Below, piece after piece: positions 7,650 through 24,256 of a stretch of 40,076 nucleotides of DNA (positions are counted from its first letter, which is position 1; every line of letters starts with the position of its first letter). The DNA is taken from the NCBI GenBank assembly GCA_016935095.1, contig JAFGRO010000047.1, positions 1 through 40,076 on the forward strand, in the 5' to 3' direction. The notes beneath the pieces were generated by a model, which worked only from the letters and a program-made list of their open reading frames with translations, did not search any database and was not told the DNA's origin. Origin of the DNA: Candidatus Woesearchaeota archaeon. Lineage in GTDB: Archaea; Nanobdellota; Nanobdellia; Woesearchaeales; GW2011-AR15. The translations under genes were made by a program, and so were the position numbers.

Positions 7650-7769
7650 GGAATAAGCCTTTAAATCGGCGGACAAGCCGCCTAAAGCCTTAAGGGAAAC
7701 AGATTAAGGACTACATCACCTAAAAACACGGTGAGTAGTCCGAATAAACTGATGTTTTTGTATTATTCC
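7650..7769 (+). ncRNA. Candidate structured RNA upstream of metK
   Basis: The 120-nt segment is closed by GGAATAA (7650-7656) with TTATTCC (7763-7769). Inside are a strong hairpin, GGCGG-ACAAG-CCGCC, near 7668-7682, and the hairpin of the 51-nt repeat at 7703-7753. A metK TATA box lies downstream of the segment (about 7791), so most of it should not be in the metK mRNA; a SAM riboswitch is therefore unlikely. It could be a separate small RNA or a hairpin-type mobile remnant. Strand and ends are inferred from base pairing only. Confidence 0.4.
7703..7753 (+). repeat. 51-nt hairpin repeat, copy A
   Basis: Identical at 49 of 51 positions to 24097-24147, which lies inside the T-loop intron of tRNA-Glu. 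The core folds as GGACTAC, one bulged A, TCACC, a 9-nt A-rich loop, GGTGA, GTAGTCC. The flanks ATTAA and GAATAAAC are conserved too. A stable hairpin with a single bulged base resembles hairpins recognised by IS200/IS605-type (REP) transposases, but no such transposase is in the window. Confidence 0.85.
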
Positions 7770-7848: not shown

Positions 7849-9036
7849 ATGAGCGTATTCGGGAAAGGAAAAATATATTTTAGTTCTGAAAGTGTTGCAG
7901 AAGGACATCCGGACAAGATGTGCGATATGATTAGCGATTCTATCCTGGATGCTATATACAAGGATGACCCTAACGCAAGAGTAGCTGTGGAATGCCTTGC
8001 AAAAACAGGATCAATAATGATCGGAGGGGAAGTCACAACCTCAACTTATGTTGAGATACAGGATGTTGTAAGAGATACAATAAGAAAAATAGGTTATGAT
8101 GACCCCAACTATGGCTTTGACGGCGATGGCTGCGGAGTCTGGCTTAATATTTCAAAGCAGAGCCCTGATATTGCACAGGGTGTTAATGAAGAAGAAGCAG
8201 ACGGCAAAGAAGGAGCTGAACAAGGTGCTGGCGACCAGGGAATGATGTTTGGCTTTGCAACTAATGAAACAGAAGAATACATGCCACTTGCTATTTCATT
8301 GGCACATAAACTTGTTGCTAAACTAGCATCTGTTCGAAGGCAGAAAATTCTTAAATATTTAAGGCCTGACGGCAAATCCCAGGTTACAGTTGAATACAAT
8401 GAAGGCAAACCTGTAAGGGTTGATAAGGTTGTCATTGCAGCTCAGCATAATCCTGAAGCCACGCCTGAGCAGATTAAAAAAGATATTATCAGGGAGGTTA
8501 TTAAGCCAGTATGCAAGGACTGGATTGATGAGGATACTGAGTTCTTTGTGAATGGCACTGGAAGATTTGTCCTCGGGGGGCCTGTTGCTGATACTGCATG
8601 CACAGGAAGGAAAATCATAGTAGATACCTATGGCGGTATTGGAAGGCACGGCGGAGGCTGTTTCTCAGGAAAAGACCCTTCAAAAGTAGACAGGAGCGGT
8701 GCTTATTACGGAAGGTATGTTGCAAAAAATGTAGTTGCAGCTGGACTTGCAGATATGTGTGAAGTGCAGGTTGCATATTGCATTGGCGTTGCAAAACCAA
8801 TGTCCGTATGGGTCAACACATTCGGCACAAACAAGATTCCTGAAGAAAAAATTGAAAAATTAGTTGAAAAACACTTTGATTTTCGACCAGCTGAGATAAT
8901 AAAGCAGCTTAAGCTAAGAAGGCCAATCTACAAAAAAACAGCATGCTACGGACATTTCGGCAGAGACGATCCAGATTTTACATGGGAGTATGTTGATAAA
9001 GCAGATATTCTGAAAAAAGAAGCAGGCTTGAAGTAG
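7849..9036 (+). CDS. metK: S-adenosylmethionine synthetase, bacterial-type MetK
   Basis: A 395-residue full-length enzyme making SAM from methionine and ATP. Motifs seen: GHPDK (19-23, ATP site), [12 protein letters not shown] (126-137), [16 protein letters not shown] (268-283, phosphate-binding loop). These belong to the bacterial/eukaryotic MAT family, not to the distinct archaeal MAT family usual in archaea, so acquisition from bacteria at some point in the lineage is likely (inference). Regulatory context: the divergent HTH-CBS gene and the structured region at 7650-7769. After the stop the sequence is T-rich (9040-9060), suitable for archaeal termination. Confidence 0.95.
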
Positions 9037-23808: not shown

Positions 23809-23954
23809 AAAAACACCTATTAAGTTGTATTTTCAAGAATTTTATACAGCTTTATAAAATTTACTGATTATTGCCTTTGTTGCATTAATTATTCAGTAAC
23901 TTTTAAAAACAGAACAAATTTCTTCAGAGAATATAGGCTCGTTAGTGTAGTCCG

Positions 23955-23978
23955 ATTCACCTAATAAGTGGAGACTAA
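23955..23978 (+). other. tRNA-Glu intron 1 (D-loop, 24 nt)
   Basis: The central helix is AGTC (23949-23952, exon) with GACT (23973-23976, intron). Bulges are CG^A and AA^G. An inner helix TTCAC/GTGGA closes a short loop. Removal leaves the D-loop AGTCCGGCCAA, the normal archaeal tRNA-Glu form. Confidence 0.85.
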
Positions 23979-23999
23979 GCCAATCATGCGGCCCTTTCG

Positions 24000-24042
24000 G
24001 CAACGGAAATGCCAGCATTTCATAGCCTTTCCAAAGGAAGAT
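24000..24042 (+). other. tRNA-Glu intron 2 (position 37/38, 43 nt)
   Basis: This is the canonical archaeal intron site. The central helix is CTTT (23994-23997) with GAAG (24037-24040), bulges CG^G and AT^A, and the outer helix is the anticodon stem. Within the intron GGAAA pairs with TTTCC, and GAAATGC with GCATTTC. Confidence 0.88.
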
Positions 24043-24063
24043 AGGCCGCGACCCGGGTTCGAA

Positions 24064-24197
24064 TGAGCGCTTTAAAAAAGCCCTCGGGGCAAACACATTA
24101 AGGACTACATCACCTAAAAACAAGGTGAGTAGTCCGAATAAACCGATTGCTTTATGTAAAGCTTGATGAAACCTCATGGTTATCATGCTCACGAAAG
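24064..24197 (+). other. tRNA-Glu intron 3 (T-loop, 134 nt) carrying a repeated hairpin
   Basis: The central helix is TTCG (24058-24061) with CGAA (24092 equivalent at the far end, 24192-24195). Bulges are AA^T and AG^T, and an inner helix TGAGC/GCTCA follows. The intron is unusually long and holds several hairpins: GCTTT/AAAGC, the 51-nt repeat hairpin, GCTTTA/TAAAGC, and AACC/GGTT. It may carry an independent RNA function. Confidence 0.85.
24097..24147 (+). repeat. 51-nt hairpin repeat, copy B
   Basis: Second copy of the hairpin at 7703-7753, with two differences: one in the loop-closing base (C to A) and one near the 3' end (T to C). All stem bases and the bulged A are identical. It lies wholly inside intron 3 of tRNA-Glu. 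Confidence 0.85.
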
Positions 24198-24256
24198 TCC
24201 CGGACGAGCCATTTTATCCAATAAATTTTTAAAAGCCAATTATTTTCAGGTTAAAA

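Follow-up and report, generated by a model that had tools for sequence, protein, structure and literature searches.

The tRNA-Glu(UUC) gene analysed here is interrupted by three introns, which raises the questions of whether it still encodes a working tRNA and where the 134-nt intron in its T-loop has come from. The gene lies in a stretch of 40,076 nt (the window), which is contig C69 of the host's own genome assembly (G000; 1.77 Mb in 82 contigs, 95% complete). The DPANN host proposed in an initial annotation of the window is borne out, with genomes of the same family identifying the organism as a woesearchaeote. The copies of the element described below in one of these family genomes (G006) match those in archaeon GW2011_AR15 (CP010425).

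Structure of the tRNA-Glu(UUC) gene

Table 1. Positions of the tRNA-Glu(UUC) exons, introns and element copies in the window.
Feature	Position	Strand	Description
Exon 1, tRNA-Glu(UUC)	23936..23954	+	Acceptor 5' strand, D arm 5' half
Intron 1, 24 nt, D-loop	23955..23978	+	HBh'-type relaxed BHB, AGTC/GACT, inner helix TTCAC/GTGGA
Exon 2	23979..23999	+	D arm 3' half, anticodon stem 5' strand, anticodon UUC
Intron 2, 43 nt	24000..24042	+	Canonical 37/38 position, CTTT/GAAG
Exon 3	24043..24063	+	Anticodon stem 3' strand, variable region, T stem 5' strand, T-loop to position 59
Intron 3, 134 nt, T-loop 59/60	24064..24197	+	Ends TGAGCGC...GCTCACGAAAG
Element core in intron 3	24090..24142	+	TTAAGGACTAC..hairpin..GTAGTCCGAAT; model R1 E=1.9e-13
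Exon 4	24198..24211	+	T stem 3' strand, acceptor 3' strand, discriminator A; CCA not encoded
Second window copy of the element, intergenic	7684..7753	+	Upstream of S-adenosylmethionine synthetase gene (7849-9036; Pfam)

The structure of the gene is established at the sequence level (Table 1). When joined, the exons at 23936-24211 give a product of 75 nt, rather than the 74 nt initially stated, which is called as tRNA-Glu(ttc) by ARAGORN and is identical at 69 of its 75 positions to the intron-free tRNA-Glu(UUC) of a relative in the same order (G051, L052). The six differences from this homologue make up three compensated acceptor-stem pairs, exon 1 is the same in the intron-free relatives except for the acceptor pairs, and the exact sequences formed by the joined junctions are present in the intron-free tRNA-Glu homologues of relatives. 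ARAGORN and the intron-free relatives agree with the initial annotation, in which four exons and three introns had been recognised. The unspliced locus is called neither by ARAGORN nor by the Rfam tRNA model (RF00005). A split or permuted tRNA is ruled out, as the four exons lie in unchanged order within 276 bp.

The bulge-helix-bulge (BHB) motifs with 4-bp helices and cuts after the second bulge base, as originally proposed for the three junctions, were likewise recovered: the central helices AGTC/GACT, CTTT/GAAG and TTCG/CGAA are fully paired (4/4), with the cuts at CG^A/AA^G, CG^G/AT^A and AA^T/AG^T for junctions 1, 2 and 3, respectively. Register shifts of 1-5 nt give 4/4 pairing at none of the three junctions, and full pairing arises in 2.4% of random cut pairs from the window, or ~1.4e-5 for all three together. 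Junctions 1 and 2 are unique; junction 3 has two possible placements one base apart (59/60 or 60/61), both giving the same tRNA, and the BHB register favours 59/60. Only intron 3 comes near the strict hBHBh' motif, from which it departs by one additional A in its inner part. Introns 1 and 2, by inspection, have relaxed BHBs, the former without an adjacent outer helix and the latter without an adjacent inner helix.

Copy number and other interrupted tRNAs

A second intact tRNA-Glu(UUC) gene, which the initial annotation had named as evidence against this reading of the locus, was not found in the 95%-complete own genome, where BLAST of the whole locus recovered the CUC isoacceptor (G000:C8) as the sole other tRNA-Glu. 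Introns are common in the tRNAs of the woesearchaeote lineage, with 11 of the 18 tRNA matches above the Rfam cut-off in the own genome spanning at least 95 nt, as counted from Rfam match spans only. Rfam tRNA matches number 14, 13 and 8 in G001, G003 and G004 (genomes 88-95% complete), and 37 in AR15; the low counts in the first three suggest that many of their tRNAs are too interrupted for detection. G004 contains a second three-intron gene (L154), a tRNA-Gln(CUG) by our own reading. In a genome of another family (G074), a tRNA-Asp(GUC) near position 1501 of locus L043 carries, by eye, introns at 37/38 and 59/60, of which the T-loop intron ends in GAAAG and lacks the core described below.

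Processing enzymes

An endonuclease and a ligase for BHB introns are both encoded in the own genome, by one PF01974 gene (G000:C53) of the short alpha type and one RtcB gene (E=5e-176). No second endonuclease subunit was detected in this genome, which yields one PF01974 match even at E<=10, and 39 of 40 relatives also have a single PF01974 gene per genome. An endonuclease of broad specificity, heterotetrameric or of the epsilon type, had been anticipated at the outset; an endonuclease gene is indeed present, but it is a single short alpha-type gene with no detectable partner. There is thus no sign in the sequences of an epsilon or heteromeric enzyme, although a very diverged second (beta) subunit could still be encoded. 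The protein aligns over its full length with that of Methanocaldococcus jannaschii (1a79) and best with 3iey_A, its closest solved relative, which is from Nanoarchaeum equitans and belongs to a heteromeric enzyme. Tyr, His and Lys are present at the aligned positions that are catalytic in the M. jannaschii enzyme. Unlike the aligned crenarchaeal chains (2cv8 and 3p1z), which have ~10 extra residues between 'YG' and 'LSLIE', the single short alpha-type endonuclease of the woesearchaeote has no such insertion. An enzyme of this type would cut the pre-tRNA at its three BHB sites, after which RtcB would join the exons into a normal 75-nt tRNA.

Relatedness and ages of the introns

Intron 1 is also found in the own tRNA-Glu(CUC) (G000:C8; 94% over query 3-64), which has the D-loop intron and lacks the T-loop intron, and intron 2 has alignable counterparts of similar length in AR15, G003, G038 and G042. 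Given this wider sharing of introns 1 and 2, and the absence of a T-loop intron from tRNA-Glu(CUC), the T-loop intron is probably the youngest, and the three would have been gained at different times. In the 37/38 introns (24000-24042; L028, L029 and L035) an inner hairpin is kept, with the stem compensated between families (GAAATG/CATTTC, GAATG/CATTC and GAAATC/GATTTC).

Intron 3 is predicted to fold at -44.8 kcal/mol (z -6.2) and is identical from end to end at 121 of 134 positions (90%) to the T-loop intron of tRNA-Arg(GCG) on G000:C38. Since the exons and flanks of the two genes are unrelated, gene duplication is excluded and the intron itself has moved or been copied, as is characteristic of a transposed intron. 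T-loop introns with the ends (A/T)GAGC...GCTC..GAAAG recur in several tRNAs of the family. The short 59/60 form (AGAGCGCTT...GCTC..GAAAG) measures 25-30 nt in other tRNAs and is found without the core in tRNA-Leu of the own genome (L137, 25 nt) and tRNA-Pro of G001 (L148, 30 nt), and a related short form, also without the core, occurs in tRNA-Gln of G004 (L154). The long form is present in two tRNAs of the own genome, tRNA-Glu(UUC) and tRNA-Arg(GCG), and in two of G001, tRNA-Glu(CUC) and one further tRNA. The T-loop intron had first been described as unusual; the 134-nt intron is real, but the description overstates the case for its position, since 59/60 introns have been listed before for archaea (PMC4090602) and recur in this family.

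The dispersed hairpin element

Part of intron 3 belongs to a family of structured repeats which is observed both in the introns of unrelated tRNAs and outside tRNA genes. A search with the model R1 locates 13 copies of the core in the own genome, the intron 3 copy included, and the core is present in seven of the ten family genomes, with a patchy distribution and 1-13 copies per genome. Among the 353 genomes of the order it is confined to one family, apart from one contaminated bin (G304). The two R1 matches in this bin were rejected as spread to another family and attributed to binning overlap, as their contig is 100% identical over 1.8 kb to G008.

The core forms a hairpin in which 96.4% of cells are paired, compared with 78.8% after shuffling and no more than 44.4% for slid versions. 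Two-sided changes occur at 11 of the 12 pairs, and the covariation score of 0.468 exceeds the 0.163 of the shuffles and the maximum of 0.107 among slid versions. The unpaired flanks of the core are conserved (TTAAGG/CCGAAT). Copies outside introns start with a second hairpin, c-CTTTTAAnAAAAG-c between short variable complementary arms (consensus by eye), and their 5' part aligns with the 5' end of intron 3. The element is ~75-100 nt in size and contains no gene.

The intergenic copy in the window is 90% identical to the locus over query 142-212, with an R1 match at 7696-7748 (E=9.2e-13), and no flanking direct duplication was found around it. Its neighbours are a CBS/HTH gene on one side and the S-adenosylmethionine synthetase gene on the other, and its flanks carry inverted, not direct, repeats (ATGGAATAAG / ATTATTCCAAT). 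In G001 (L091 on contig C1, 1501-1836), the core occurs in the T-loop intron of one tRNA with an element copy on each side, facing inwards. Another woesearchaeote, nzgw53, has a tRNA-Phe-like gene whose T-loop holds, at the matching position, a divergent element with the same core. The loci of this genome (L113; L102-L105, L110, L112, L115, L117 and L119) represent a divergent family in which the core TAAGGACTAT..ATAGTCCGAA is shared, the 5' hairpin reads CAACYG..CRGTTG and the 3' part is different, with many of the loci outside T-loops.

Rfam gave no match in the window at the gathering threshold, and in six element loci (E<=0.5) it matched only a tRNA. A group I intron was rejected, with no Rfam group I match in the window or the six loci, as was a viral origin; one IMG/VR contig fits the core pattern, but R1 fails to recover it and its context differs from that of the element. 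Pattern matches in bacteria (among them Paraprevotella and Enterococcus) are likewise missed by R1 and are therefore treated as chance. Tyrosine integrases are encoded in nine of the ten family genomes, none of them adjoining a core by coordinates, and no recombinase was seen to be linked to the element.

Gene-end duplications around the element copies

The stretch immediately preceding the element recurs directly behind it, over 15-90 nt, at 16 copies and at one array of three tandem copies, each duplication scoring above 100 shuffles. The duplicated stretches are gene ends, comprising the 3' or 5' ends of tRNAs, the starts of the dnaK, chaperonin and enolase genes, and ends of AsnRS, rpoA2-like, parvulin-like and phosphomannomutase-like genes (names from translations). 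The intact gene lies on the core side of the element and the displaced partial gene end on the other, an arrangement seen at the 16 copies and the array but absent from the intron copies. No duplication was detectable at about half of the copies, including both of those in the window.

Between the two versions of a duplicated protein-coding end, the differences are mostly synonymous for the phosphomannomutase-like (12:2) and enolase (9:2) genes, and four small cases (AsnRS in two genomes, a parvulin-like and an archaemetzincin-like gene) together give 6:0. There is no synonymous excess at L090 (2:4), L094 (2:3), L107 (0:4) and L080 (3:2), where some of the differences are at the edge of the duplication. 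As the differences are often synonymous, exchange of the gene end for that of a diverged allele, as happens when an integrative element restores its target, is favoured over duplication on the spot.

Several arrangements were also observed at individual loci. Three tandem copies on contig C3 of G008 (L093, 1402-1751), each with another partial tRNA 3' end, precede one intact tRNA and look like repeated integration at one site. On contig C56 of the own genome (L071, 1410-1611) an element separates a partial gene start (MVEFKRKLYKR..) from a gene with the identical starting peptide. At L028, L032, L039, L040 and L052, which represent several families of the order, the tRNA-Glu 3' end is repeated downstream after ~40-120 nt of other sequence without the R1 core. 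Gene-end duplication may be much wider than the R1 element.

Origin of the T-loop intron

Taken from the sequence evidence, the locus is probably a single-copy, and very probably functional, tRNA-Glu(UUC) gene whose T-loop intron carries a miniature element that integrates at gene ends. The intron would consist of a short 59/60 intron and a copy of this structured element, made up of the 5' hairpin and the conserved core hairpin. Outside tRNAs the element would integrate at gene ends, often displacing a partial copy of the gene end, and the same gene-end-recombining element would also have inserted into short introns of the T-loop. An element in this position would be cut out of the RNA and tolerated, since a BHB is formed by the T-loop together with the intron ends, and its cost to the host would be small, as splicing removes it. 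Movement may have been brought about by some recombinase or by homologous recombination. Set against this reading are the lack of an integrase beside any core, the copies with no detectable duplication, the coding cases with no synonymous excess and the chance that the core has travelled only within introns copied from tRNA to tRNA by gene conversion. That an undescribed miniature mobile element of the Woesearchaeales swaps donor gene ends into tRNA and housekeeping genes and repeatedly enters tRNA T-loops, where BHB splicing hides it, and thereby provides a direct and ongoing route of intron gain, is entertained as a serious but tentative possibility.

Four other explanations were considered. 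It is rather doubtful that the repeats around the element arose simply as long target-site duplications, produced by a transposase or by target-primed insertion and subject to later drift. The repeats do directly flank the element and vary from 15 to ~90 nt; the mostly synonymous differences in the enolase and phosphomannomutase-like cases, however, indicate that both copies evolved as coding sequence.

Transposition of introns between tRNA genes only, with the intergenic hairpins being decaying pieces of escaped introns, is unlikely. The 134-nt intron would then have been copied between tRNA-Arg and tRNA-Glu, in either direction, by gene conversion or retro-integration, as in the Thermoproteales. 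This would account for the end-to-end identity of the Glu and Arg introns, for intergenic copies that adjoin tRNA fragments (L077, L083, L088 and L093) and for the alignment of the 5' part of intergenic copies with the intron 5' end. It sits poorly with the copies at the ends of the dnaK, chaperonin, enolase, AsnRS, rpoA2-like and phosphomannomutase-like genes, which duplicate those genes, and with the divergent version at many loci outside tRNA T-loops in nzgw53.

Guide RNAs are hosted in other archaeal introns, and the strong covariation and conserved unpaired flanks of the core would suit a conserved non-coding RNA for which the intron serves as host, or a regulatory hairpin, that has been passively duplicated; read antisense after gene 3' ends, the element is a hairpin followed by a T-rich stretch, as in a terminator. 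Such an origin is nevertheless quite improbable, as the loci are mostly unshared between genomes, the copy number is variable and patchy, several copies are tandem or nested, Rfam offers no match and gene-end duplications would not be expected of a resident RNA gene. That the locus is a decaying pseudogene or an artefact of the 82-contig assembly is scarcely credible, with all 75 exon bases fitting a well-formed tRNA, no alternative UUC gene found and matching intron types recurring in other tRNAs and genomes.

Comparison with known systems

The probable combination of a functional tRNA-Glu(UUC) gene with an element-bearing T-loop intron has partial parallels in other archaea. Multi-intron tRNAs and 59/60 introns are known from the Thermoproteales, among them the tRNA-Pro(UGG) of Pyrobaculum islandicum, with introns at 25/26, 56/57 and the canonical position (PMC4090602). 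As in these pre-tRNAs, three BHB introns occur in one tRNA and one of them in the T arm; the host is, in contrast, a DPANN archaeon (Woesearchaeales) and the 134-nt T-loop intron carries a dispersed repeat. The three-intron gene itself is a known kind of tRNA in a new lineage. Large-scale transposition of tRNA introns in the Thermoproteales (Fujishima et al. 2010), in the terms in which it is cited in PMC4090602, similarly involves near-identical introns at matching positions of unrelated isoacceptors, whereas part of the woesearchaeote intron is also multi-copy outside tRNA genes.

In the tRNA-Thr(GGU) of Caldiarchaeum subterraneum, intron gain left a tRNA fragment behind (Sugahara et al. 2012, PMC3293823). 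Both there and here, intron gain is tied to a repeated element and a tRNA fragment lies beside an intact tRNA. The Caldiarchaeum insertion, however, is 1.9 kb with a putative recombinase gene, whereas the much smaller woesearchaeote element is non-coding, also affects protein genes and sits inside an intron. The SSV-type and pNOB8-type integrative elements of archaeal viruses and plasmids recombine at tRNA ends (PMC3293823) and, like the element described here, have a partial gene end on one side and a reconstituted gene end on the other; the woesearchaeote element differs in having no integrase or other gene and in its many different target genes. Group I introns are also found in Woesearchaeota and other archaea, all of the reported ones in rRNA (PMC6125680). 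Aside from the shared lineage, the likeness lies in a core stem (GACTA/TAGTC) that is superficially P7-like, in contrast with the lack of an Rfam group I match and the BHB splicing of the woesearchaeote tRNA. No literature on Woesearchaeota tRNA introns or on such elements was found in our search, and within the literature covered the connection of a T-loop intron with a dispersed element at gene ends is a new one.

Implications for the Woesearchaeales

Standard tRNA finders overlook multi-intron genes of this kind, and tRNA counts for the lineage are consequently too low. The combination of non-canonical introns with an apparently lone alpha-type endonuclease makes the lineage a test of the rule that such introns require a heteromeric or loop-bearing enzyme. 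As the repeat within the intron can be traced outside tRNAs, where it has left insertion footprints, the donor, the choice of target and the enzyme involved can now be searched for.
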